DNA of 64,000 bases from Saccharothrix espanaensis DSM 44229 (GTDB lineage: Bacteria; Actinomycetota; Actinomycetes; Mycobacteriales; Pseudonocardiaceae). The DNA is taken from assembly GCF_000328705.1 (NCBI RefSeq), contig NC_019673.1, positions 6,696,001 through 6,760,000 on the forward strand. Reading direction: 5' to 3'. This document shows positions 19,565 through 36,925 of the stretch, piece after piece (position 1 is the first letter of the stretch; each line of letters opens with the position of its first letter). The notes below the pieces were generated by a model that saw only the letters and a program-made list of their open reading frames with translations, did no database searches and was not told the DNA's origin. The position numbers and the translations under genes were made by a program.

Positions 19565-20629
19565 TCAGTGGGAGTGGTCGGGGGTGGGGTGGGGGGTGGT
19601 GCGGGCTGCGGCTCTGGTGGTGGTGCGGGTGTGGGAGAGCAGGCCCAGGAGGCTGCGGCGGTCCCGGCGGAGCCAGGCGGCCAGGACCAGGGCCGCCGCC
19701 AGGAGCAGGACCCAGCCGAAGCTGAGCACCAGGACTGGCACCCACCAGACGACGAACCGGACCACCACCGCGTACCACGGGGCCGGACCGCCGTTCACCC
19801 GTTGCAGCGCCAGGTGGAACACGACCTGGCCGGGGGTGGCCCGGTCGGCCCGCAGCAACGGGACCACGAGCGTGTAGAAGGTCAGCGTGACCGCCGACAG
19901 GAGCGTGGTGAAGCGCGGCGACTCGGTCAGGGCCCGGGTGGTGTCGCCGGACAGCGCCAGGACCACCAGGATCGCGAACTGGGTCAGTTCGAAGACCAGC
20001 AGGTCGCCCGCGAACGCCAGCCCGCGCCGGGGCAGGCCGGGTGGTGCCAGGTCCGGGTCGTGCTCGGCGTTCGCCGGCGGCAGCAGGCGGGCCAGCGGGA
20101 TCGCCAGCAGCCAGCCGACGGCGGTGCCGGTGGTGTTGGTGAGGATGTCGTCCACGTCCGCCAGCCGGTACGGGCACGGGTACAGGCCCAGCACGGCGCT
20201 GCCCTGGACGAACTCCACCGACGTCGACACCAGCACGCCCACGGCCACCGAGGTGAACAACCCCCGGCCGAACCGGTAGCGCAGCAGGAACCCCATCGGC
20301 AGGAACAGCACCACGTTGAGCAGCACCTGCCACAGCGCCGGGCTGCCGTCGCGCAGGATGTCGTCCAGCGACGCGAACAGCTGCAACTGCCACGAATCCG
20401 AGAACCGGCGGCCCGTGCAGAAGTCCGGCCCGACCACCGGCAGTGGGAACAGCGTGAACGCGACCAGGCCGCAGCCGTACAGCACCCCGGCCGCCGCGAC
20501 TAACGCCGACCAGCCGCGCAGCCGGCCGAACCGGCGGTACTGGCGGTGCACCCAGGGCAGCACCGCCAGCGGCACCACCAGCGCGAACAGGATGAACGCG
20601 ACGATCGACTCGGTCATCCGCACCGACAC
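19565..20629 (-). CDS. VanZ-family membrane protein with RDD-like C-terminus
   Basis: A 354-residue polytopic membrane protein. The N-terminal half has VanZ-type features (LLNVVLFLPMGFLLRYRFGR, VGVLVSTSVEFVQ, DVDDILTNTTGTAVGWLLA). The C-terminal half (RRGLAFAGDLLVFELTQFAIL onward) resembles the RDD membrane domain. About eight to ten transmembrane helices. VanZ proteins confer low-level teicoplanin resistance by an unknown route and many family members have no known role. It is the last gene of the operon with the giant DUF11 protein and the short DUF11 protein, 13 bases after the latter. The GTG at 20629 is used; an ATG at 20617 is possible. Confidence 0.8.
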   Translation of the reverse strand: MSVRMTESIVAFILFALVVPLAVLPWVHRQYRRFGRLRGWSALVAAAGVLYGCGLVAFTLFPLPVVGPDFCTGRRFSDSWQLQLFASLDDILRDGSPALWQVLLNVVLFLPMGFLLRYRFGRGLFTSVAVGVLVSTSVEFVQGSAVLGLYPCPYRLADVDDILTNTTGTAVGWLLAIPLARLLPPANAEHDPDLAPPGLPRRGLAFAGDLLVFELTQFAILVVLALSGDTTRALTESPRFTTLLSAVTLTFYTLVVPLLRADRATPGQVVFHLALQRVNGGPAPWYAVVVRFVVWWVPVLVLSFGWVLLLAAALVLAAWLRRDRRSLLGLLSHTRTTTRAAARTTPHPTPDHSH

Positions 20630-20642
20630 GAGCGACCCCCGG

Positions 20643-21134
20643 TCAGCCGGCCACCCGGTCGCGCCGACGTCGGCGCAGCACCACGAACACCCCCGCCGCC
20701 AGCGCGAGCACGACCACCGCCACCACCAGCGGCCACCAGGGCATCGGCGACTTCGCCAACGCCGGCGGGGTCGCCGCCAACTGGTCGGAGTCGGTCGAGC
20801 ACACCACCGGGCGGGTCTCGCCGGTGCGGTAGGCGCACACCGAACTCGCCAGCCGCGCGGTGCCGTCCGGCGCGGCGTCGAAGACCACCTTGTCGGTGAG
20901 CGTGACGTCCTCGCCCGCCGGGATGGACGCCGTCCACTGCACCGACGTCTCCGACGTCCGACCGTCCTGGTCGGCGGTCACCACCCGCACGCCCGGTGGG
21001 ACGGACTGCGTCACCCGCAGTCCCTCCACATCGGACGAACCGGTGTTGCGCACCGTGATCTTGTACGCCAGCTCGTCACCACCGTGCACCTGGTCGTGCG
21101 CGTTGTCGATGGAGATCGACAAGCCTTCCGTCAC
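20643..21134 (-). CDS. one-domain DUF11 membrane protein
   Basis: A 163-residue protein with a single DUF11/CARDB-like beta-sandwich (LSISIDNAHDQVHGGDELAYKITVRNTG to about residue 110), a Ser/Asp-rich stretch with a cysteine pair, one transmembrane segment (WWPLVVAVVVLALAAGVFVVL) and a basic tail (RRRRRDR). Its N-terminus has no signal peptide, although the topology demands that the domain be outside. The GTG at 21134 follows AAGGAGGG and overlaps the stop of the giant protein (GTGA), so it is translated by coupling. It may be a minimal companion or derived from the giant gene. Confidence 0.8.
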   Translation of the reverse strand: MTEGLSISIDNAHDQVHGGDELAYKITVRNTGSSDVEGLRVTQSVPPGVRVVTADQDGRTSETSVQWTASIPAGEDVTLTDKVVFDAAPDGTARLASSVCAYRTGETRPVVCSTDSDQLAATPPALAKSPMPWWPLVVAVVVLALAAGVFVVLRRRRRDRVAG

Positions 21135-24100
21135 CGCCGTGCCCTCCTTGTCATGAACACCAGTCCGCCGCCCACGAGGAGCAGCAGCAGGCCACCGAGC
21201 AGCCAGGGCAGCAGCAGCGCGCCGGTCGACGCGATCGGCGGCGCCGGCTCCACCGCCGTCCGGGTCGAACACCTGGGGTCGTCGCCACCGGGCCGGCAGT
21301 TCGCGCCCGGCGTGTCCGAGATGACGGTGTTGGTCAGGTCCTTGTCGCCGTTGCCGGTCACCGTCACCGAGTAGGTCACCGTGGCCGTGCCGCCCACCGC
21401 GATGTCACCCGTCCAGGACAGCACCGGGTTCTGGTACACCGCGCCCTCCGACGCGCCCTCGAACGTGGCGTCGTCCAGCACGCCGACCAGCGAGTCGAAG
21501 AACCCGGCGCCGACCAGCGGTGTCCTGCCGGTGTTGCGCAACGTCACGGTGTAGGTCACGCGGTCGCCCGGCCGCACCTGCTCGCGGTCGGCCGCCTTCA
21601 CGATCTCCAGCCCCGCCACCGGTGTCGTCGTGCCGCAGTCCGGCCCCGGGCAGAGCCGGCCCGGCGTGTCCGACGTGACCACGTTGCGCAGCAGGAAGTC
21701 GCCGGTCGGCGGGTCGGCCACCTTCACCCGGTAGGTCACCGTCGACGTGGCGCCGACCGGGAGCTGCCCGGTCCAGGTCAGCGTCGGTGCGGCGAACGAC
21801 GAGGTGCCCGTGGTCGCCGACGCGGACAGGAACTCCGCGTCGTCGAGCACCCCGCCCAGGTCGTCGGTGAACTGCGCGGCCGGCAGGTCGACCTGGCCGG
21901 TGTTGGCCACCACGACGGTGTAGGTCACCGGCTCGCCGGGCTTCGCCTCCGCCCGGTCCACGGTCTTCACGATCGCCAGGCGCGGCACCAGGACGGTGGC
22001 CGAGCAGCGCGGGTCCACCTCGCCGGCGCGGCCACGCATCGGCAGCGGGCAGTTCGACCCCGGGGTGTCCGACCCGACCGCGTTGACCAGCCTCAGGTCG
22101 CCGGTCGCCGGTGTGCCGACGGTCACCGAGTAGGTGACCGTGGCCTTCGCGCCAACGGCGAGCCGCCCGCTCCACCTCAGCGCCGGCGCGGCGTAGTCGA
22201 CCATGCCCGCCGTGGCCGTGGCGTCGGCGTTGTAGGCCGCGTCGTCCAGTACCTCGGTCAGGTCGTCGGCGAAGCTCGCGTCCTGCGCGGTCTGGCCGGT
22301 GTTGGTGACCACGACCGTGTACGTCACCCGCTCCCCCGGCGCGGCCGTGGTGCTGCTCGCGGTCTTCTCCACGATCAAGCCGGGCAGTTCGGTGAGCGTG
22401 CCGCACTTCGGGTCGGTCGAGCCCGGCGGGCAGTTGTTGCCCGCCGAGGTCGACCTGACCACGTTGCGCAGCGCGTGGTCACCGGTGACCGGGGAGTTCA
22501 CCGTCGCCGAGTAGGTGATCGTGGCGGTCGCCCCGATCGGCAGGTCACCGGTCCAGGTCAGCTCCGGGGGCGCGTAGCCCGCGGTGCCCGGCCCGGTCAC
22601 GGTCGCGTCGTCGTTGTAGGTCGCGTCATCGATGACCTGGGCCAGGTCGTCGGTGAACGTCGCTCCCGCTTGGACGGTCTGGCCGGTGTTGCGGACGGCC
22701 ACCGTGTACGTCACCGTGTCGCCGGGTTTCACCGTGGCGGGCGACGACGTCTTCTCGATGCTCAGGCCCGCGATCGGCGTCACCGTCGTGCACGCCACGC
22801 ACTCGTGGCCCGGGGTGTCGGAGGTGACCGCGTTGGTGAGCTTGAAGTCGCCGGTCACCGGGTTGTTCACGGTCACCGTGTAGGTGATCTCGGCCGTCGC
22901 CCCGGCCACCAGTGCGCCGGACCACACGAGCTTCGGCGCGGTGTAGGTCGCGGTGCCGGTGGTGGCGCTCGCCGAGCCGAACGCGGCGTCGTCCACGACC
23001 TGGGTCAGGTCGTCGGAGAAGCTCGCGTCGAGCGCCGTCCGGCCGGTGTTGGCGACGGTGATCTTGTAGGTGACGACGTCCCCGGGCTTGGCGTCGGCAC
23101 GGTCGACCACCTTGGTGATCGTCATGCCCGGCAGGGCGGTGTCCGTCGAACACCTCGGGTCGACCGCCCGCGCCCGGCCGCCCATCGGCAGCGGGCAGTT
23201 GGTGCCCGGCGTGTCGGACCCGACCACGTTCGTCAGCCGGTGGTCGCCGGGGATCGGGTCCTTGACCCGCACCGAGTAGGTGACCGTCGCGGTCGCCCCG
23301 ATCGGCAGGTCACCGGTCCACGTCAGCTCCGGCGCGGTGAACGCGACGGTGCCGGTCGTGGCCGTGCCGTCGTTGTTGTAGTCGGCGTCGTCCAGGACCT
23401 GGGACAGGTCGTCGGTGAACGTCGCTCCCGCTTGGGCGGTCTGGCCGGTGTTCCGCACCGTCACCGTGTACGTCACCGTGTCGCCGGGGTTGACCGTTGC
23501 GGGCGAGGACTTCTTCTCGATGACCAGGCCCGCGATCGGGGTGACCACGGCGCACTTCGGGTCGGTCGAACCCGGCGGGCAGTTGGTGCCCGGCGTGTCC
23601 GACACGATCGCGTTGGTGAGTCTGAAGTCGCCGGTCACCGGATCGTTCACGGTCACCGTGTAGGTGATCGTGGCCGTCGCCCCGACCGCCAGCGCGCCGG
23701 TCCACGTCAACCTCGGCGCGGTGTAGGTCACCGCTCCGGAGGTGGCGCTCGCCGAACCGTAGGTCGCGTCGTCCACGACCTGGGTCAGGTCGTCGGTGAA
23801 CGACGCGTTCTGCGGTGTCTGGCCGGTGTTGGCGACCGTCACCGTGTAGGTGACCGTGTCGCCCGGCTTGGCGTCCGCCTTGTCCGCGGTCTTGGTGATC
23901 TCCAGGCCCGGCAGCGCGGTGTCGGTCGAGCACTTCGGGTCGGTCGAGCCCGGCGGGCAGTTGGTGCCCGGCGAGCCGGAGCTGACCACGTTGGTCAGCC
24001 GGTGGTCGCCGGTGATCGGGTTCTTGACCTGCACCGTGTAGGTGACGGTGGCCGTGCCGCCCACCGGCAGGTCGCCGACCCACGTCAGGTTCGGCGCGGC

Positions 24101-27100
24101 GTAGACCACGCTGCCGGTGGTGGCGGTGCCGTCGTTGGCGTAGTCGGCGTCGTCCACCACCCGGGACAGGTCGTCGGTGAACGTCGCGTCGTCCTGCGCC
24201 GTCTGGCCGGTGTTCCGCACCGTCACCGTGTACGTGACCGTGTCGCCGGGTTTCACCGTGGCGGGCGACGACGTCTTCTCGATGCTCAGGCCCGCGATCG
24301 GCGTCACCGTCGAGCACTTCGGGTCGGTCGAGCCCGGCGGGCAGTTCCCGCCCGGGGTGTCCGACACGATCACGTTGGTGAGGGTGAAGTCGCCGGTCAC
24401 CGGGTCGTTCACGGTCACGGTGTAGGTGATGGTCGCCGTCTCACCGACCGCCAGCGCGCCGGTCCACGTCAGCTTCGGCGCGGCGTAGGTCGCCGTGCCC
24501 GTGGTGGCGCTCGCCGAGCCGAACGCGGCGTCGTCCACGACCTGGGTCAGGTCGTCGCTGAAGGTCGCGTTCTGCGGGGTCTTGCCGGTGTTGCGCACGG
24601 TCACCGTGTAGGTCACCGTGTCACCCGGCTTCGCCGAGGTCTGGCCAGCCGACTTCACGATCTCCAGACCGGGCAGCGGGGTGCTCGTGCGGCACGGCGG
24701 GTCGTCCGAGTCCGGCGGGCAGTTGCCCGGCGTGTCGGAGCTGACCACGTTGGCCAGCTCGTGGTTGCCGGTGATCGGGTTGTTCACGGTGACCGTGTAG
24801 GTGACCGTCGCGGACGCGCCGACCGCGAGGTCGCCGGTCCAGGTCAGCCTCGGCGCGGCGTAGGTCACCGTGCCCGTCGTCGCGGTCGCGGAGCCGTAGG
24901 TGGCGTCGTCCACCACGTCGGTCAGGTCGTCGGTGGCGACCGCGCCGGTCAGCGGCACCTGCCCGGTGTTGGTGAGCACGACCGTGTAGGTGAGCGTGTC
25001 ACCGGGGTTGGCGGTCTGCTTGTCCACCGACTTCGCGATGCTCAGCTCCCGGCCCGGGGTCTCGGTGCCGCAGGACGGGTCGGTCGAGCCCGCCGCGCAG
25101 TTGCCGCCCGGCGTGTCCGAGGTGATCCGGTTGACCAGCTTCTTGTCGCCCGGATCGGGGTCCTTGACCGTCACCGTGTAGGTGACCGACGCCGACTCGC
25201 CGATCGCCAGGTCGCCGGTCCAGGTCAGCCTCGGCGCGGTGTAGGTGACCGTGCCGGTGTTCGCGACCGCGTCGCCGTTGTAGTCGGCGTCGTCGAGGAC
25301 CTGGGTCAGGTCGTCGGTGAACGTCGCACCGGTGATCGGCGTCTTGCCGGTGTTGATCACCGCGATCGTGTACCGGACCGTGTCACCGGGCAGCACCTCG
25401 TCGCGGTCGTCGGTCTTGACGATCCGCAGCGCGGAGATCGGCGTGGACGTCCGGCACGCGGCCGCGTCCGCCGGGCAGTTGGCACCCGGCGTCGTGGACG
25501 TCACCGCGTTGTCGAGCTGGAAGTCGCCGCCGGAGACCGGGTTCTCCACCCGCACCGCGTAGGTGACGGTGGCCGTGCCGCCGATCGCGAGGTCGCCGGT
25601 CCAGGTCAGGTTCGGCGCGGTGAACGCCGCGGTGCCGGTGGTGGCCGTCGCGCTGCCCCACGTGGCGTCGTCCAGCACGCCGGACAGGTCGTCGGTGAAC
25701 GTCGCCCCGGTCAGCGCCGTGTTGCCGGTGTTGGTGACCGTGACGGTGTAGGTGACCGTGTCGCCCGGCAGCGCCTGCTGCCGGTCCACCGACTTCTCGA
25801 ACCGGACGCCCGACAGCGGGGTGCTGGTCGAGCACTTCGGGTCGGTCGAGCCGGGCGGGCAGTTGCTGCCCGGCGAGTCGGAGGTGACCACGTTGCCAAG
25901 CGTCTTGTCGCCCGTGCCGGTCACCGTCACCGTGTAGGTGACGATCGCCGACTCGCCGACGCCGAGCGTGCCGGACCAGGCGAGGTTCGGTGCGGTGAAC
26001 GTCGCCGTGCCGGTGCTGGCCGTCGCACTGCCCCACGTCGCGTCGTCCAGCACGCCGGACAGGTCGTCGGTGAAGCTCGCGTCCTGCGGGGTTTTCCCGG
26101 TGTTGCGGACCGTCACCGTGTAGGTCACCGTGTCGCCCGGGTTCGCCGCCGGCTTGTCGACCACCTTGGTGATCTCCAAGCCGGACAACGGGGTCGACGT
26201 CGAGCACTTCGGGTCCGTCGAGCCCGACGGGCAGTTGTTGCCCGGGGTGGTCGAGGTGACCGCGTTGCCCAGGAGGAAGTCTCCGGCGACCGGGTTGTTC
26301 ACCGTGACGGTGTAGGTGACCGTGGCCGTGCCGCCGACCGGCAGGGTGCCCGACCACGCCAGGTTCGGCGCGGTGAACGTCGCCGTGCCCGTGGAAGCGC
26401 TGACGCTGCCCCACGTCGCGTCGTCCAAGACTCCGGACAGGTTGTCGGAGAACGACGCGTCCAGCGACGTCTGGCCGGTGTTGGTCAGGGCCACGGTGTA
26501 GGTCACCGTGTCACCGGGCTTCGCGGACGGCTTGTCCACGGACTTCGCGATCTCCAACCCCGGCAACGACGTCGTGGTGGAGCAGCGCGGGTCGGTCGAG
26601 CCCGGCGGGCAGTTGCCGGGGGTGGTGGAGCTGACCGCGTTGCGCAGGGCGCGGTTGCCGGTGATCGGGTCGTTCACCGTGACGGTGTAGGTGATCGTCG
26701 CGGTGCCGCCCGGGGCGAGGTCGCCGGTCCACGTCAGCGTGGGCGAGGCGAACGTGGCCGTGCCGGTCGACGCCGTCGCGCTGCCCCACGTCGCGTCGTC
26801 CACCACGTCGGACAGGTCGTCGGTGACCGTGGTGGGCGTCAGCGGCACCTGGCCGCTGTTGGTGACGGTGAGCGTGTAGGTCACCGTCTCGCCGGGGTTT
26901 GCGGTCTGCTTGTCCGACGTCTTCTGGATGGTGAGCTCGCGGCCCGCCGTGCTGGTCGAGCACTTCGGGTCGGTCGAGCCGGTCGGGCAGTTGCTGCCCG
27001 GCGAGTCGGAGGTGACCACGTTGGTGAGCTGCTTGTCGCCGGGGTTGGGGTTCTTCACCCTCACCGTGTAGGTGACCGTGGCCGACGCGCCGATCGCGAG

Positions 27101-30100
27101 CGTGCCGGTCCACGTCAGGTTCGGCGCGGCGTAGGAGACCGAGCCCACTGTGGCGGTGCCGTCGTTGCCGTAGTCCGCGTCGTCCAGCACCCTGGTCAGG
27201 TCGTCGGTGAACGACACTCCCGTTTGGACGGTCTGACCCGTGTTCGTCACGGTCACCGTGTAGGTCACCACGTCACCGGGGTTGACCGTCGCCGGCGACG
27301 ACTTCTTCTCGATGCTCAGGCCCGCGATCGGCGTGGTCGTCGTGCAGGTGATGCACACCGCGCCCGGCGTTGTCGAGCGGACGTCGTTGACCAGCTTGTA
27401 GTCCCCGGTCACCGGGTTCTGCACGGTCACCGTGTAGGTGATCGTCGCCGTCGCGCCGACCGCGAGGTCACCGGTCCAGGTGAGCCTCGGTGCGGCGAAG
27501 GTCGCCGTGCCGAGCGTGGCGCTCGCGCTGCCCCACGTCGCGTCGTCCAGCACGCCCGTCAGGTCGTCGGCGGCGGTCGCGCCGGTGAGCGCGGTCTGGC
27601 CGGTGTTGCGGACCACGACGGTGTAGGTGACCACGTCGCCGGGTTTGGCGTCGGCGCGGTCGACGGTCTTCTTGATCTCCATGCCCGGCAGCGGGGTGCT
27701 GGTCGAGCACTTGGGGTCGGTCGAGCCCGGCGGGCAGTTGGCGCCCGGTACGTCCGACGTGACGGCGTTGCGCAGCCGGTGGTCACCGGCCGGCGGGTCG
27801 TCCACCCGCACCGAGTAGGTGACCACGGCCTGCGACCCGACCGGCAGGTCTCCGGTCCAGGTCAGCACCGGTTCGGCGTAGGTGACCGCGCCGACCGTGG
27901 CCGTGCCGTCGGCGTTGTAGGCGCCGTCGTCCAAGACGTCGGTCAGGTCGTCGGTGAACCTCGCGCCGTTCTGCGGCGTCTGGCCGGTGTTGCGGACGGT
28001 GACCGTGTAGGTGACGGTCGCGCCGGGCTCGGGGGTGGCTGGCGCGGCCGTCTTGGTGATGTCCAACCCCGCGACCGGCGTGCTGGTCGAGCACTTCGGG
28101 TCGGTCGTGCCGGTCGGGCAGTTGCTGCCCGGCGTGCTCGACGTGACCGCGTTGGCCAGCCGGAAGTCGCCGGGCACCGGGTTCTTCACCGTCACCGTGT
28201 AGGTGATCGTCGCCGTCGCGCCGACCGCGAGGTCACCCGTCCAGGTGAGCCTCGGCGCGGTGTAGGACGTCGTGCCGAGCGTGGCGGCGGCATCCGCGTT
28301 GTAGGTCGCGTCGTCCACGACCCCGGTCAGGTCGTCGGTGAACGTCGCTCCCGGGTGGACGGTCTGACCGGTGTTGGCGACCACGACCGTGTAGGTGACG
28401 GTGTCGCCCGGCTTGACCGACGCGGGCGCGGCGGTCTTGGTGATGCCCAGGCCCGCGACCGGCGTCGAGGTCGTGCAGTCCGGGTCGGTCGAGCCGGCCG
28501 GGCAGTTGCCGCCCGGCGTGCTCGACGTGACCACGTTGGCCAGCCGGAAGTCGCCGGTCGGCGGGTTCTTCACCGTCACCGTGTAGGTGATCGTGGCGGT
28601 GCCGCCCACCGGCACGTCACCGGTCCAGGTCAACGTCGGCTCGGCGTAGGCGGCCGTGCCGGTGGTGGCGGTCGCGCCGCCCCACGTGGCGTCGTCCACC
28701 ACGTCGGCCAGGTTGTCGCTGAACGTCGCGGCGGTCAGCGGCGTCGTGCCGGTGTTGCGGACCAGCACCGTGTAGGTCACCACGTCACCGGGCTTGGCGT
28801 CGGTGCGGTCCACCGACTTCGTCAGGTCGATGCCGGACACCGGGGTGGTGGTCCCGCACCGCGGGTCGGTCGAGCCGGCCGGGCAGTTGCCGCCGGGCGT
28901 GGTCGAGGTGACCGCGTTGCCCAGGGTGAAGTCGCCGGTCGGCGGGTTCTGCACGATCACCGTGTAGGTGACCGTCGCCGTCGCGCCGACCGCGAGCGCC
29001 CCGGTCCACGCCAGGTTCGGCGAGGTGAACGTAACCGTGCCGGTCGACGCCGTCACGCTGCCCCATGTCGCGTCGTCCAGGACGCCGGACAGGTCGTCGG
29101 AGAAGTTCGCGTCCTGCGGCGTCGTGCCCGAGTTCCGCACCGTGACCGTGTACGTCACGGTGTCGCCCGGGTTCGCGGACGGCTTGTCGACCGTCTTGGT
29201 GATCTCCAGGCCCGGCAGCAGGGTCGTGGTCGAGCAGGCCGGGTCGGTCGAGCCCGGCGGGCAGTTGCCCGGCTCGGTGGAGCTCACCGCGTTGCCCAGC
29301 TCGTGGTTGCCGGTGGTCGGGTTCTTCACCGTCACGGTGTAGGTGACCGTGGCCGACGCGCCGACCTCCAGGCTGCCCGTCCAGTTCAGGTTCGGCGAGG
29401 CGAAGGTGGCGGTGCCGGTCGACGCCGTCACGCTGCCCCAGGTCGCGTCGTCCAGCACGTCGGACAGGTCGTCGGCGAACGTCGCGTTCGACAGCGGCAC
29501 CTGGCCGGTGTTGGTCACGGTCACCGTGTACGTGACCGTCTCGCCGGGGTTGGCGGTCTGCTTGTCCGAGGTCTTGCTGAAGGTCAGCTCACGGCCGGGG
29601 GTCGCGGTGCTGCACGAGGGATCGGTGGACCCGGCCGGGCAGTTGCTGCCCCGCGTGGTCGACACGATCTGGTTGACCAGTCTCTTGTCGCCCGGGTCGG
29701 GGTCGAGCACCGTCACCGTGTAGGTGACCGTCGCCGACGCGCCGACCGCCAGGTCACCGGTCCACGTCAGGTTCGGCGCGGTGTAGGAGACGGAGCCGGC
29801 CGTCGCGGCGGCGTCGGCGTTGTACGTCGCGTCGTCGATCACCCGGGACAGATCGTCGGTGAAGGTTGCGCCGGTCTGCGGCGTCTGGCCGGTGTTGGTG
29901 ACGACGATCGTGTACGTCACCGTGTCGCCGGGGACCACCTCGTCCCGGTTGTCGCTCTTGACGATCCGCAGGCCGGCGATCGGCGTCGAGGTCTTGCAGC
30001 GGGCGTCGGTGGACCCGGTCGGGCAGTTGCTGCCCGGCGTGGTCGAGGTGACCACGTTGTCCAGTCGGAAGTCGCCCGTGACGGGCTCCTTCACGGTGAC

Positions 30101-33100
30101 CGTGTAGGTGATCGTCGCCGTCGCGCCGACCGCGAGGCTGCCCGACCACGCCAGGTTCGGCGAGGTGAACGTCACCGTGCCGGTGCTGGCCGTCGCACTG
30201 CCCCACGTCGCGTCGTCCAGCACGCCGGACAGGTCGTCCGAGAAGTTCGCGTTGAGCGGTGTCTGCCCGGTGTTGGTCACCGTCACCGTGTAGGTCACCG
30301 TGTCGCCGGGGTCCGCCGAGGTCCGGTCGACCGCCTTCGCGATCGTCACGCCGGACAGCGGGGTGCTGGTCCGGCACTTCGGGTCGGACGAGCCGGCCGG
30401 GCAGTTGTTGCCGGGCGTGGTCGAGGTGACGGTGTTGGCCAGCCGCTTGTCGCCGTTCCCGGTCACCCGTGCGGTGTAGGTGACCGTCGCGGACGCGCCG
30501 ACCGCCAGGTTCCCGGTCCACACCAGGTTCGGCGCGGTGAACGTCGCCGTGCCGGTCGAGGCGGAGGCGCCGATCCACGTCGCGTCGTCCAGCACGCCCG
30601 CGAGGTCGTCGGTGAAGGTCGCGCCGTTCTGCGGGGTCTGGCCGGTGTTGCGGACCGTCACGGTGTAGGTGACCACGTCACCGGGGTTGGCGGACGGCTT
30701 GTCCACGGTCTTGGCGATGTCCAGACCGGAGACCGCGGTGGACGTCCGGCAGACCGGGTCGGTCGAGCCGGCCGGGCAGTTGCTGCCCGCCGTGCTCGAC
30801 GTGACCACGTTGGCCAGCCGGAAGTCGCCGGGCACCGGGTTCTGCACGGTCACCGTGTAGGTGATCGTCGCCGTCGCGCCGACCGCCAGGTCACCGGTCC
30901 ACACCAGGTTCGGCGCGGTGAACGTGGCGGTGCCGGCGGTCGCCGACGCGCTGCCCCAGTTCGCGTCGTCCAGCACGCCGCCGAGGTTGTCGCTGAAGGT
31001 CGCGCCGGTCAGCGCCGTCTTGCCGGTGTTGCGGACGGTCACCGTGTAGGTCACCACGTCACCGGGGTTGGCCGACGCCCGGTCCACCGCCTTGGCGACC
31101 TGCAGGCCCGCGACCGGCGTGGAGGTCCGGCAGCGCGCGTCGGCGGAGCCGGCCGGGCAGTTGCTGCCCGCCGTGGTCGAGGTGATCACGTTGTCCAGCT
31201 GGAAGTTCCCGGTCACCGGGTTCTTCACGGTCACCGTGTAGGTGACGGTCGCCGACGCGCCGACCGCGAGGTTGCCGTTCCAGGTCAACGTCGGCGAGGT
31301 GAACGAGACCGTGCCGAGCGTCGCCGACGCGCTGCCCCAGTTCGCGTCGTCCAGCACGGCGGTCAGGTCGTCGCTGAACGTCGCGCCGGTCAGCACCGTC
31401 TTGCCCGTGTTGGTGACCGTCACCGTGTAGGTCACCACGTCACCGGGGTTGGCGGTGGCCCTGTTCGACTTCTTGTCGATCGTCATCCCGGCGACCGGGG
31501 TGGAGGTCCGGCAGCGCGCGTCGGCGGAGCCGGCCGCGCAGTTGCTGCCCGCCGTGGTCGAGGTGACCACGTTGTCCAGCTGCCGGTTGCCCGCGCCGGT
31601 CACCGTCACGGTGTAGGTGATGGTGGCGGTCGCGCCCACGGCCAGCGTGCCGGACCAGTTCAGGTTCGGCGCGGTGTAGGTCGCGGTCCCGGTCGACGCC
31701 GTCACCCCGCCCCACGTCGCGTCGTCCACGACCTGCGACAGGTTGTCGCTGAAGTTCGCCGACAGCGACGTCTGGCCGACGTTGCGCACGGTCACGGTGT
31801 AGGTGACGACCTCGCCGGGGTTGGCCGACGCCTTGTCGGCCTTCTTCTCGATCGTCATGCCCGGCGCGTTGACGACGGTGCGGCAGTCCGGGTCCTGCGT
31901 GCCGGTGACGCAGTTGCCCGCGTTGCTCAGCACCGCGTTGCGCAGCTGGTGGTCGCCGGTGACCGGGTTCTTCAGCGTCACCGAGTAGGTCAGCGTGATC
32001 GTCTGGCCGGCCGCGACCGTGCCGGTCCAGCGCAGTCTCGGCGCCGTGTAGGTGAAGGTGCCGCCGGCCGGCGTGGCGGTCTGGTCGTTGTTGAAGTTCG
32101 CGTCGTCCAGGACGGCGGTCAGGTCGTCCTCGACGATCACGCCGCCCAGCGGCTCGACGCCCTGGTTGGCCACGGTGACCGTGTAGGTGACCTTCTCGCC
32201 GGCCGCCGCGACCGCCTTGTCCGCGGTCTTGCGGATGCGCAGGCACTCGATCGGCAGCCGGTAGTCCTCGACCTCGCCGCTGTCCGCGAGCCCCGTCGGG
32301 CTCTGCACCTGGGTGGTGTTGAAGCCGGCCCGGAACCGGGCGTAGGTGAACCCGCAGCCGATGGTGGCGGGCAGCACCCAGGTGATGTTCGCGCTGGTCG
32401 CTCCGGCGGCGAAGTCGGCGCAGGCGCGTTCGCCGGGGTTGTCGAACACGCCGTCGCGGTCGAAGTCGATCCACCCGCAGACCCGGCCCGCCGACGTGGT
32501 GCGGGCCAGCGTGACCGGGACGGTGTAGTTCAGCCCGCCGTAGCTGCTCGCGAGTCTGGGGAACCCGGCCACGCCGTCGTCGAACGTGTCGCCGTTGGGC
32601 AGGTTGTTGTCCGCGCCCGCCGCGACCGCTTTCGGGCTCGGCGTGACGGTGCCGGTGTTCTGGGTGGTCGTGTTGTCGGCCGAGACGTCCGTGCCGAGCA
32701 CCGGGCCGCCGACGACGTGGCTCGCGGCCGCGCCCGGGTCGTAGCTCGCGGGCGCGTCGCCGAAGTCCTCGTCCGCGGAGATGCCGAGCGAGAACGCGTC
32801 CGGCGTGTGCTGGCCGCCGTTGACGTAGCTGTAGACGGCGAAGGAGACCGAGGAGACGGTGCCGAGCATGCGCACGCTGCCGCAGCCGGCCGTCGCCTGG
32901 CGGGCCCCGACCGAGTTGCACGCGGTGTTGGCGCTGCGGTTGGCCGACTCGATGCGCGCGCCGCCCACCACGGTCAGGTTCGTCGCCCCGGCCAGCGGGC
33001 CCTCCAGCGTCACGCCGGGTGTCGTCGCGGTCAGCGCGGCGGTCGCGGAGTCGGCGGCGTTGATCGTGCCGCCGATGCCGACGACGTGCAGCACCGGGTT

Positions 33101-33499
33101 GCGCAGCGGCCGGGTGAACGTGAGCGTGATCGTGCCGCGGTTGTAGCAGTCCGAGCCGGCCGCGCAGTCGTCGACGACCGTGATGAGGTCGAGCAGCGCG
33201 GTGTTCGCCGGGATCTGCGGGGTGAAGTTCGCCGCGGTGCCGCCACGCACGCTCGGCGGCGAGTTCAGGTTGTTCAGCTGGAGCTTGTCGCCGGCGACCG
33301 CCACGGTCACCCCGACGCCGGACGGGAGCGCCGAGGTGGCGTTCGCGTAGGTCGAGGGCAGGGCGGAGCTCGACGTCCACGCGGTGGTGGGGTGCGTCTG
33401 GTAGCCCCGCGCCGCCGGTGCCACGAGCGCGACGCCGGCCAGGGCGATCAGCCAGGCCGACAACGCCGAGCCGAGCCGGCGCGCCGGGCTCGTGGACAT
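21131..33499 (-). CDS. giant DUF11-repeat surface protein
   Basis: A single open frame of 4,122 residues. Residues 1-32 are a Sec signal (ending APAARG); about 33-270 is a non-repetitive beta-rich domain; about 280-415 has DFGDAPASYDP and the GEVEDY signature. From about residue 419 there are 29 tandem DUF11 units of about 125 residues. Each begins like GLEITKTVDKPSANPGDTV and usually ends with a Cys-X8-Cys pair of the kind NCPPGSTDPKC. The C-terminus has IASTG followed by a hydrophobic helix and RRARR, which resembles a sortase signal of the LAXTG type. GAGGAG precedes the ATG. It is likely wall-anchored, acting as a stalk or adhesin; that function is inference. Confidence 0.9.
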   Translation of the reverse strand: MSTSPARRLGSALSAWLIALAGVALVAPAARGYQTHPTTAWTSSSALPSTYANATSALPSGVGVTVAVAGDKLQLNNLNSPPSVRGGTAANFTPQIPANTALLDLITVVDDCAAGSDCYNRGTITLTFTRPLRNPVLHVVGIGGTINAADSATAALTATTPGVTLEGPLAGATNLTVVGGARIESANRSANTACNSVGARQATAGCGSVRMLGTVSSVSFAVYSYVNGGQHTPDAFSLGISADEDFGDAPASYDPGAAASHVVGGPVLGTDVSADNTTTQNTGTVTPSPKAVAAGADNNLPNGDTFDDGVAGFPRLASSYGGLNYTVPVTLARTTSAGRVCGWIDFDRDGVFDNPGERACADFAAGATSANITWVLPATIGCGFTYARFRAGFNTTQVQSPTGLADSGEVEDYRLPIECLRIRKTADKAVAAAGEKVTYTVTVANQGVEPLGGVIVEDDLTAVLDDANFNNDQTATPAGGTFTYTAPRLRWTGTVAAGQTITLTYSVTLKNPVTGDHQLRNAVLSNAGNCVTGTQDPDCRTVVNAPGMTIEKKADKASANPGEVVTYTVTVRNVGQTSLSANFSDNLSQVVDDATWGGVTASTGTATYTAPNLNWSGTLAVGATATITYTVTVTGAGNRQLDNVVTSTTAGSNCAAGSADARCRTSTPVAGMTIDKKSNRATANPGDVVTYTVTVTNTGKTVLTGATFSDDLTAVLDDANWGSASATLGTVSFTSPTLTWNGNLAVGASATVTYTVTVKNPVTGNFQLDNVITSTTAGSNCPAGSADARCRTSTPVAGLQVAKAVDRASANPGDVVTYTVTVRNTGKTALTGATFSDNLGGVLDDANWGSASATAGTATFTAPNLVWTGDLAVGATATITYTVTVQNPVPGDFRLANVVTSSTAGSNCPAGSTDPVCRTSTAVSGLDIAKTVDKPSANPGDVVTYTVTVRNTGQTPQNGATFTDDLAGVLDDATWIGASASTGTATFTAPNLVWTGNLAVGASATVTYTARVTGNGDKRLANTVTSTTPGNNCPAGSSDPKCRTSTPLSGVTIAKAVDRTSADPGDTVTYTVTVTNTGQTPLNANFSDDLSGVLDDATWGSATASTGTVTFTSPNLAWSGSLAVGATATITYTVTVKEPVTGDFRLDNVVTSTTPGSNCPTGSTDARCKTSTPIAGLRIVKSDNRDEVVPGDTVTYTIVVTNTGQTPQTGATFTDDLSRVIDDATYNADAAATAGSVSYTAPNLTWTGDLAVGASATVTYTVTVLDPDPGDKRLVNQIVSTTRGSNCPAGSTDPSCSTATPGRELTFSKTSDKQTANPGETVTYTVTVTNTGQVPLSNATFADDLSDVLDDATWGSVTASTGTATFASPNLNWTGSLEVGASATVTYTVTVKNPTTGNHELGNAVSSTEPGNCPPGSTDPACSTTTLLPGLEITKTVDKPSANPGDTVTYTVTVRNSGTTPQDANFSDDLSGVLDDATWGSVTASTGTVTFTSPNLAWTGALAVGATATVTYTVIVQNPPTGDFTLGNAVTSTTPGGNCPAGSTDPRCGTTTPVSGIDLTKSVDRTDAKPGDVVTYTVLVRNTGTTPLTAATFSDNLADVVDDATWGGATATTGTAAYAEPTLTWTGDVPVGGTATITYTVTVKNPPTGDFRLANVVTSSTPGGNCPAGSTDPDCTTSTPVAGLGITKTAAPASVKPGDTVTYTVVVANTGQTVHPGATFTDDLTGVVDDATYNADAAATLGTTSYTAPRLTWTGDLAVGATATITYTVTVKNPVPGDFRLANAVTSSTPGSNCPTGTTDPKCSTSTPVAGLDITKTAAPATPEPGATVTYTVTVRNTGQTPQNGARFTDDLTDVLDDGAYNADGTATVGAVTYAEPVLTWTGDLPVGSQAVVTYSVRVDDPPAGDHRLRNAVTSDVPGANCPPGSTDPKCSTSTPLPGMEIKKTVDRADAKPGDVVTYTVVVRNTGQTALTGATAADDLTGVLDDATWGSASATLGTATFAAPRLTWTGDLAVGATATITYTVTVQNPVTGDYKLVNDVRSTTPGAVCITCTTTTPIAGLSIEKKSSPATVNPGDVVTYTVTVTNTGQTVQTGVSFTDDLTRVLDDADYGNDGTATVGSVSYAAPNLTWTGTLAIGASATVTYTVRVKNPNPGDKQLTNVVTSDSPGSNCPTGSTDPKCSTSTAGRELTIQKTSDKQTANPGETVTYTLTVTNSGQVPLTPTTVTDDLSDVVDDATWGSATASTGTATFASPTLTWTGDLAPGGTATITYTVTVNDPITGNRALRNAVSSTTPGNCPPGSTDPRCSTTTSLPGLEIAKSVDKPSAKPGDTVTYTVALTNTGQTSLDASFSDNLSGVLDDATWGSVSASTGTATFTAPNLAWSGTLPVGGTATVTYTVTVNNPVAGDFLLGNAVTSTTPGNNCPSGSTDPKCSTSTPLSGLEITKVVDKPAANPGDTVTYTVTVRNTGKTPQDASFTDDLSGVLDDATWGSATASTGTATFTAPNLAWSGTLGVGESAIVTYTVTVTGTGDKTLGNVVTSDSPGSNCPPGSTDPKCSTSTPLSGVRFEKSVDRQQALPGDTVTYTVTVTNTGNTALTGATFTDDLSGVLDDATWGSATATTGTAAFTAPNLTWTGDLAIGGTATVTYAVRVENPVSGGDFQLDNAVTSTTPGANCPADAAACRTSTPISALRIVKTDDRDEVLPGDTVRYTIAVINTGKTPITGATFTDDLTQVLDDADYNGDAVANTGTVTYTAPRLTWTGDLAIGESASVTYTVTVKDPDPGDKKLVNRITSDTPGGNCAAGSTDPSCGTETPGRELSIAKSVDKQTANPGDTLTYTVVLTNTGQVPLTGAVATDDLTDVVDDATYGSATATTGTVTYAAPRLTWTGDLAVGASATVTYTVTVNNPITGNHELANVVSSDTPGNCPPDSDDPPCRTSTPLPGLEIVKSAGQTSAKPGDTVTYTVTVRNTGKTPQNATFSDDLTQVVDDAAFGSASATTGTATYAAPKLTWTGALAVGETATITYTVTVNDPVTGDFTLTNVIVSDTPGGNCPPGSTDPKCSTVTPIAGLSIEKTSSPATVKPGDTVTYTVTVRNTGQTAQDDATFTDDLSRVVDDADYANDGTATTGSVVYAAPNLTWVGDLPVGGTATVTYTVQVKNPITGDHRLTNVVSSGSPGTNCPPGSTDPKCSTDTALPGLEITKTADKADAKPGDTVTYTVTVANTGQTPQNASFTDDLTQVVDDATYGSASATSGAVTYTAPRLTWTGALAVGATATITYTVTVNDPVTGDFRLTNAIVSDTPGTNCPPGSTDPKCAVVTPIAGLVIEKKSSPATVNPGDTVTYTVTVRNTGQTAQAGATFTDDLSQVLDDADYNNDGTATTGTVAFTAPELTWTGDLPIGATATVTYSVRVKDPIPGDHRLTNVVGSDTPGTNCPLPMGGRARAVDPRCSTDTALPGMTITKVVDRADAKPGDVVTYKITVANTGRTALDASFSDDLTQVVDDAAFGSASATTGTATYTAPKLVWSGALVAGATAEITYTVTVNNPVTGDFKLTNAVTSDTPGHECVACTTVTPIAGLSIEKTSSPATVKPGDTVTYTVAVRNTGQTVQAGATFTDDLAQVIDDATYNDDATVTGPGTAGYAPPELTWTGDLPIGATATITYSATVNSPVTGDHALRNVVRSTSAGNNCPPGSTDPKCGTLTELPGLIVEKTASSTTAAPGERVTYTVVVTNTGQTAQDASFADDLTEVLDDAAYNADATATAGMVDYAAPALRWSGRLAVGAKATVTYSVTVGTPATGDLRLVNAVGSDTPGSNCPLPMRGRAGEVDPRCSATVLVPRLAIVKTVDRAEAKPGEPVTYTVVVANTGQVDLPAAQFTDDLGGVLDDAEFLSASATTGTSSFAAPTLTWTGQLPVGATSTVTYRVKVADPPTGDFLLRNVVTSDTPGRLCPGPDCGTTTPVAGLEIVKAADREQVRPGDRVTYTVTLRNTGRTPLVGAGFFDSLVGVLDDATFEGASEGAVYQNPVLSWTGDIAVGGTATVTYSVTVTGNGDKDLTNTVISDTPGANCRPGGDDPRCSTRTAVEPAPPIASTGALLLPWLLGGLLLLLVGGGLVFMTRRARR
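21255..32245 (-). repeat. 29-copy DUF11 coding repeat array
   Basis: The array has a period of about 372-381 bases. I counted 29 copies from the K-x-x-x/PGD-x-V phrase that opens each unit. Copies are similar enough that stretches of 20-40 bases recur exactly, which invites recombination and makes assembly difficult. A two-unit super-repeat (a GLEITK-type unit followed by a GLSIEK-SSPATV-type unit) is seen in copies 21-26, and a three-unit cassette appears at 7-9, 14-16 (variant) and 19-21. Confidence 0.85.
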
Positions 33500-33873
33500 G
33501 GTGCTCCTCTGAGGACGGATTCGCGATCGAAGATCACGCTAGGCCGTACCACCGACAATCCGGCCGGTGCGGGCACTCAGGTCCACCCGATCGAGTGGCG
33601 GGAGCGCCAGTTCGCGGGTGTGCGCGACCTGTCGTCCCTTGTGGACGGATCGGCAGGCGAACCCGGTACGTGCGGTTTCGCCGCTCGCAGGAGGAGCGCG
33701 CCTTGCCGCTCGGGCCGGCCTCGCCGTGGCCGACCTCCCACCCGCTTGCCGTCCTCGCCCTCGGTCGCGGGTACCGGTCGGACTCGGAGCCGACGACCCT
33801 TCCCATCTGCTGTCCTCAAAGGTCGGTCGGGTGGCCGCCGGGCGTCCCCGGCGGCCACCCGACGGTGAGGTGA
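33500..33873. other. non-coding gap between giant gene and rpf
   Basis: This 374-base gap holds the promoter of the giant DUF11 gene at its left side (no convincing -35/-10 pair seen) and the rpf terminator hairpin at its right side. Open frames here run into shadow frames and lack ribosome sites. Confidence 0.45.
33826..33863 (-). terminator. 17-base-pair terminator hairpin after rpf
   Basis: GTCGGGTGGCCGCCGGG (33826-33842) pairs perfectly with CCCGGCGGCCACCCGAC (33847-33863) around a 4-base loop, starting 10 bases downstream of the rpf stop on the minus strand. It is the strongest stem found in the window. Confidence 0.85.

Positions 33874-36925
<3,052 letters not shown>

Follow-up and report, generated by a model that had tools for sequence, protein, structure and literature searches.

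A 4,122-residue DUF11 protein of Saccharothrix espanaensis as a probable covalently locked, sortase-anchored surface rod

Introduction

DUF11 has been described as a stalk domain (PMC9210967), and DUF11-containing proteins are named among the bacterial proteins longer than 5,000 residues (PMC11573180). In a 2025 survey the domain was renamed CLIPPER and reported to form an isopeptide bond between Lys and Asn close to an Asp, a bond that confers resistance to heat and protease; DUF7927 was also listed there among predicted isopeptide families, and 29.7% of CLIPPER domains were reported to have a disulfide in addition to the isopeptide bond (PMC12617251), so that the pairing of the two cross-links is already known. 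The structure 9IFR comes from an adhesin of Acinetobacter silvestris, B9T28_05395 (DUF11, PF01345), laid out as an NR2-like region, a GEVED-like region and a stalk of CLIPPER and cadherin-like domains (PMC12617251). In CshA-type fibrillar adhesins GEVED comes after the adhesive domain and invariably accompanies CshA_NR2 (PMC10952558). The present study analyzes a gene for a 4,122-residue DUF11 protein (the giant) in a stretch of 64,000 nucleotides of Saccharothrix espanaensis DSM 44229 (the window; NC_019673.1, positions 6,696,001 to 6,760,000), together with the small DUF11 gene and the VanZ gene beside it. An initial annotation, made from the letters and their reading frames, had proposed a surface stalk of unusual size with disulfides at its domain joints, a C-terminal membrane anchor and an operon link to VanZ. 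Comparisons were made with 297 genomes of the family, 25 of them of the window's genus; where labels are needed, G denotes a relative genome (G000 being the strain's own), C a contig and L a genome stretch that was examined.

Results and Discussion

Patterns detected in the giant make it likely, in our judgement, that this is a cell-wall-anchored, fibrillar-adhesin-like protein, a rod locked by isopeptide bonds and disulfides and held by a class E sortase anchor. The gene is one uninterrupted frame running from 33499 to 21131 on the minus strand, and both the length and the 29 DUF11 units first proposed for it were borne out. Its parts are as follows (window coordinates).

21131..33499, minus strand: giant surface protein, 4,122 residues (open reading frame, Pfam, unit parse, third-position G+C)
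33404..33499, minus strand: signal peptide, residues 1-32 approximately, hydrophobic core WLIALAGVALVA (by inspection, with a presumed cleavage site)
32510..33403, minus strand: N-terminal region, residues 33-330 (no Pfam match; homologues in three Lentzea and one Acidimicrobiales metagenome-assembled genome)
32255..32482, minus strand: GEVED domain, residues 340-415 (Pfam)
21245..32248, minus strand: 29 tandem DUF11/DUF7927 (CLIPPER-type) units, residues 418-4085 (Pfam, unit parse), each with a Lys-Asp-Asn triad and a C-terminal Cys pair
21134..21235, minus strand: IASTG, hydrophobic stretch and RRARR, a putative class E (LAxTG-like) sorting signal, residues 4089-4122 (pattern)

Searches with Pfam models found 29 stretches each of DUF7927 and DUF11 (whole-protein scores of 1968 bits against a cut-off of 31, and 1030 bits against 24.6) and the one GEVED domain. 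The units are 120-134 residues long, the last additionally holding the tail, and pairs of units share 42-82% protein identity with a mean of 60% (neighbours 61%, without a strong nearest-neighbour pattern). A Cys pair near the unit end, noted at the outset for most units, is present in all 29, with a spacing of X8 in 23, X2 in two (units 13 and 25, the short C-X2-C form), X14 in two, X6 in one and X4 in one. The first reading had missed the triad of Lys7, Asp41 and Asn101 (unit 8 numbering), likely a Lys-Asn isopeptide cross-link, which together with both Cys is invariant in 29/29 units, and a paralogue in the same genome keeps triad and Cys pair in 12/12. Counted from the Lys of unit 8, Asp lies at +34, Asn at +94 and the first Cys at +104; in 9IFR, Lys715 is followed by Asp748 (+33), Asn806 (+91) and Cys818 (+103) (PMC12617251), and the Lys/Asp/Asn offsets of the two match closely. 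Each unit is probably locked twice, by a predicted isopeptide bond and a predicted disulfide. An alternative explanation could be that the units are plain disulfide-bridged immunoglobulin (Ig)-like spacers without isopeptide bonds, their number being passenger DNA that drifts, and it is true that the Lys-Asn bond in these units is a prediction. This would not account for the retention of Lys, Asp and Asn in every unit in the face of pair identities as low as 42%, nor for a triad Lys in each when Lys makes up only 2.4% of the protein, and we regard it as very improbable.

The doubly locked unit is also consistent with the predicted fold. An AlphaFold model of units 8-9, built with 28 overlapping unit pairs from the window, is confident (predicted local distance difference test, pLDDT, 97.1; predicted template modelling score 0.86), and has a CnaA-like Ig fold; in a Foldseek search it matched 9IFR with a template modelling (TM) score of 0.81 of target, a root-mean-square deviation of 2.1 and 28% identity. 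In 9IFR a Cys-X2-Cys disulfide (CTTC motif) sits in the last strand (PMC12617251). Since the two-unit model matches 9IFR, the Cys pair by comparison probably lies inside each unit rather than between units, and the interdomain disulfides first proposed for the joints are disfavoured, the pair occupying the place of the last-strand CTTC motif. When solved structures were searched by sequence with the unit pair, a single unit and the N-terminal region, no convincing match emerged, and weak rows at E 0.23-9.9 were taken as chance.

Judging from its letters, the giant's C-terminus resembles a class E sortase signal of the form (I/L)AxTG, and the class E sortases that actinobacteria from soil and freshwater possess are reported to recognise LAXTG (PMC5148588). 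It thus reads as a sorting signal rather than as the membrane anchor proposed earlier. Three sortase-domain matches occur in the genome, and one of them (L122) passes the class E model NF033747 at 256 bits against a cut-off of 160. Among 17 C-termini, which are those of the complete DUF11 proteins of at least 900 residues in the loci examined (two frames cut by the locus end being excluded), [LI][AS]xTG stands near the end, followed by 15-45 residues, in 11 (the window, L009, L092-L097 and L114-L116), a private domain in four (L091, L117, L118, L119) and neither in two (L010, L111).

Taken as a mechanism, Sec would export the giant by way of its signal peptide, and a class E sortase would cleave IASTG between Thr and Gly and join the protein to peptidoglycan. 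The 29 CLIPPER-type units would line up as a long rod in which every unit is locked twice, by an Asp-catalysed Lys-Asn isopeptide bond and by a last-strand disulfide, and the rod would hold the N-terminal region of about 300 residues and the GEVED domain away from the cell, where adhesion may take place. If a unit contributes about 4 nm, the rod would measure very roughly 100 nm. The giant would then be a large natural covalently locked rod in a soil actinomycete, a single chain predicted to contain 29 isopeptide bonds and 29 disulfides, its mechanism clarified by the triad and the sortase-type end.

Several observations weigh against this interpretation. In the Foldseek search 9IFR ranked only 45th by E-value, and the top matches by E-value were larger Ig-like chains of several domains, among them integrins, cohesin dyads and collagen adhesins, at low TM scores of 0.24-0.41 of query. 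The sorting motif begins with Ile instead of Leu; NCBIfam sorting models give the giant's tail 14-21 bits, which is below their cut-offs, and the best model does equally well on the tail of the small protein, which is without a TG motif. Because of this low and undiscriminating scoring the NCBIfam models say little here, and the sortase signal is a pattern call backed by relatives. At the other end, the N-terminal part gave no Pfam match up to E 10, GEVED excepted, and so no known adhesive domain, and its model is poor (pLDDT 50.4, from five sequences). CshA_NR2 (PF18651) was unmatched across the strain's own genome at E 0.001, and hhalign of the N-terminal region against one NR2 sequence gave a probability of 0.1%; with Pfam, the genome search and hhalign all negative, identity of this region with CshA_NR2 is unsupported.

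Compared with described systems, the giant shares with CshA-type fibrillar adhesins (PMC10952558) a signal peptide, an N-terminal region followed by GEVED and a repeat stalk, and a sortase-type end, but no CshA_NR2 match precedes its GEVED. Likeness to A. silvestris B9T28_05395 as described (PMC12617251) extends over the fold and the Lys/Asp/Asn offsets, a Cys pair in the equivalent final stretch, GEVED close to the N-terminus and the tandem stalk; that protein differs in having 2,129 residues against 4,122, a Cys spacing of X2 where the window giant has mostly X8, and an OmpA-like anchor instead of a sortase-type end, and the window's N-terminal region is not recognisable as CshA_NR2. Closer relatives were found in Lentzea (L. 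waywayandensis, L. albida and Lentzea sp. NBRC 102530), which share the N-terminal region and GEVED (58-62% identity over 385 residues), a DUF11 stalk and an IAWTG end, but whose proteins have about 2,500 residues and 17 units, with neither a separate small DUF11 gene nor a VanZ gene detected in the stretches compared. The N-terminal region by itself has homologues in the three Lentzea genomes (57-61%) and in the Acidimicrobiales assembly (42%); within the 297 family genomes, own genome excluded, it occurred in the three Lentzea, with two weak partial matches in another genus. The same-genome paralogue (G000:C1 2,973,960-2,979,644; L009 5961-11645) resembles the giant in its 12 units with triad and Cys pair and its LADTG end, and differs in length (1,894 residues), in its N-terminal region and in that no small DUF11 gene was called separately next to it.

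The reading as a giant surface stalk was correct, yet the protein belongs to a described class, of which it is a large example. Its size is not unusual, as had been claimed, since six relatives have longer DUF11 frames: 7,083 residues in G024, of the same genus, 6,362 in G224, 6,300 in G184, 6,285 in G253, 6,284 in G259 and 5,673 in G195. A 1,500-residue piece of each (6/6) held 9 to 12 DUF11 stretches by Pfam. Their units differ in type, a window unit finding none of the six by tblastn at E 1e-4. Because strong DUF7927 matches (E <= 1e-18) were present in only 2/25 genus genomes, own included, the window's unit type is rare in the genus, though giant DUF11 proteins are not. The 7,083-residue frame, at about 3,672,000 of G024:C1 (L093), ends in LAWTG.

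Third-position G+C supports the frame as coding: ten samples of 600 bases, taken along the gene, give 0.95-0.99, against 0.49-0.65 in the other two minus-strand frames of the same samples. Read on the plus strand, 21131-33499 gives a different, arginine-rich sequence; antisense to the gene there is also a stop-free frame of 3,797 residues (22475-33868, plus strand), probably a shadow of high-G+C repeats. An assembly error is unlikely because DNA identity between units is 56-85%, exact internal repeats reach no more than about 76 bases, for which reason repeat collapse is not a strong worry, and the genome (9,360,653 bases) was closed with fosmids and polymerase chain reaction (PMC3469384). The terms DUF11, sortase and surface protein are absent from that genome paper, and a full-text literature search found no publication on the giant by title or abstract among the matches listed.

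The genes adjoining the giant are as follows.

20643..21134, minus strand: small one-domain DUF11 protein, 163 residues, C-terminal hydrophobic helix (Pfam)
19565..20629, minus strand: VanZ-RDD membrane protein (Pfam), also a neighbour in relatives without the giant
33874..34728, minus strand: Rpf-like transglycosylase and LysM protein, upstream flank
34901..36925, minus strand: MMPL transporter, syntenic flank in three relatives

The small gene overlaps the giant's stop codon by four bases (GTGA) behind an AAGGAGG sequence, and the VanZ gene starts 13 bases beyond it. The scan found no promoter-like site and 5 terminator-like sites where 4.1 were expected, every one of the 5 lying on the plus strand, so that an operon is suggested by spacing only. 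Of the operon first proposed, the operon-like layout with the one-domain DUF11 gene is supported and the inclusion of VanZ as part of a system is not.

Close homologues of the small gene (E < 1e-15, 297 genomes) occupy, besides the window, 12 loci spread over 10 genomes from three other genera; a truncated copy in G011 matches at 1.8e-15, and matches at E 0.001 occur in 79 genomes, mostly as DUF11 parts of other proteins or as weak, unsorted hits. Counting the window and leaving out G011, there are 13 loci, and in six of them (the window, two each in G053 and G100, one in G115) a giant DUF11 gene immediately precedes the small gene. Judging from this adjacency, it probably encodes an accessory of giant DUF11 stalks, and as a partner gene it is better supported than VanZ, with a candidate role in anchoring. 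A stronger version would make giant and small protein a two-gene unit, the latter receiving or holding the stalk at the membrane side as proposed for WxLIP with WxL proteins. Four of the six giants concerned are without a sorting signal and end in a private domain of about 130 residues, which would suit such a role. However, at the other seven loci, all in genus g45, the nearest called same-strand upstream gene encodes merely 373-394 residues, and the window's small protein is without a signal peptide while its giant already carries a sorting signal, leaving the two-gene unit possible but somewhat doubtful. All nine small-gene homologues with a called start have a hydrophobic N-terminus. Because the window's protein, which starts inside the giant's stop codon, has no hydrophobic or signal-peptide-like N-terminus, either its single helix serves to insert it, the domain staying outside, or its function has been lost.

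Fusions of VanZ and RDD are reported to be common, the role of RDD being unknown (PMC12419801). VanZ matches at E 0.001 occurred in 21/25 genus genomes (own included), and close orthologues (61-69% identity, E < 1e-110) in 12 others of the genus; the neighbourhoods compared are those of these 12, weaker matches being left out, and three of the contigs end within 2.3 kb of VanZ. The three window genes share a strand, with the small overlap and gap given above, and in G011 a truncated small gene still adjoins VanZ, as might be expected of a conserved system in which giant stalk, small DUF11 protein and VanZ cooperate at the cell surface. Rather, the giant was beside VanZ in 0/12 neighbourhoods, where the next upstream called genes encode 147-416 residues, the small gene was missing from 11/12, and two window units gave no tblastn match at E 1e-4 in the 12 stretches. 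G003 and G021 keep the order MMPL-Rpf-VanZ with only 477 and 275 bases between Rpf and VanZ, against about 13.2 kb in the window, and at the same threshold no VanZ was found in 12/12 stretches (19-20 kb) around small-gene homologues of other genera. The three genes thus show no conserved co-occurrence; a DUF11-VanZ system is rejected on gene order and should be dropped, cooperation of the three being next to incredible, and the giant's link to VanZ looks accidental. Read most simply, the giant and the small gene make up an accessory block that lies between Rpf and VanZ and was gained or lost independently of VanZ, which is most likely an unrelated resident gene beside which the block was inserted or, in relatives, lost. 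Rpf adjoins VanZ in 3/12 neighbourhoods. In G011 the order is PadR, monooxygenase, VanZ, the truncated small frame (132 residues, first part unlike the others), Rpf, MMPL; that frame, at L102 6741-7136 on the minus strand, is probably a relic of the accessory block. In G009 (L111) a 905-residue protein, encoded on the opposite strand about 5 kb upstream of VanZ, gave a single weak unit match.

The four giants without a sorting signal (G100:C13, G100:C47, G115:C144 and G053:C4; L144, L146, L145 and L119) end in the domain of about 130 residues (A4), with the small DUF11 gene behind. It gave no Pfam match in three of the four giant ends, those scanned, and was found in 7 copies in 3/297 genomes, four at giant ends and three in small proteins that lie upstream of three of the giants and consist mainly of it. 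The layout of these loci, as distinct from the window, resembles that of Firmicute WxL clusters with WxLIP (PMC10599100), in which a giant with a special C-terminal domain is likewise accompanied by a small Ig-like membrane protein; they differ in that hhalign detected no sequence homology, and the window giant is without that C-terminal domain. Homology of the private domain to WxL-like sequences of these genomes was not shown (hhalign E 0.17, probability 0.4%). As a speculative and rather unlikely generalization, Pseudonocardiaceae might possess a two-part device of an isopeptide-locked giant DUF11 stalk and a single-DUF11 membrane base or assembly partner, in which stalks without a sorting signal would use the private domain and a small companion in place of sortase anchoring, in a WxL-like layout free of detectable homology, the window being the version with a sortase-type end and partner.

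The called frame of the G053:C4 giant (L119 3226-9021) opens by eye with a tyrosine-recombinase-like stretch, possibly a fusion or a wrong start. In the window giant no WxL domain was found in a whole-protein Pfam scan at E 0.01, the sole PF13731 match of its genome lying elsewhere. The same genome has a WxL-like cluster (G000:C1:1154584-1157912; L143 4585-7913), which lies about 1.5 kb away from a sortase-like gene. It consists of a 524-residue protein whose weak WxL match, at 22 bits, falls below cut-off, a WxLIP_PGBD protein (38 bits) and a further small protein that has a terminal helix.

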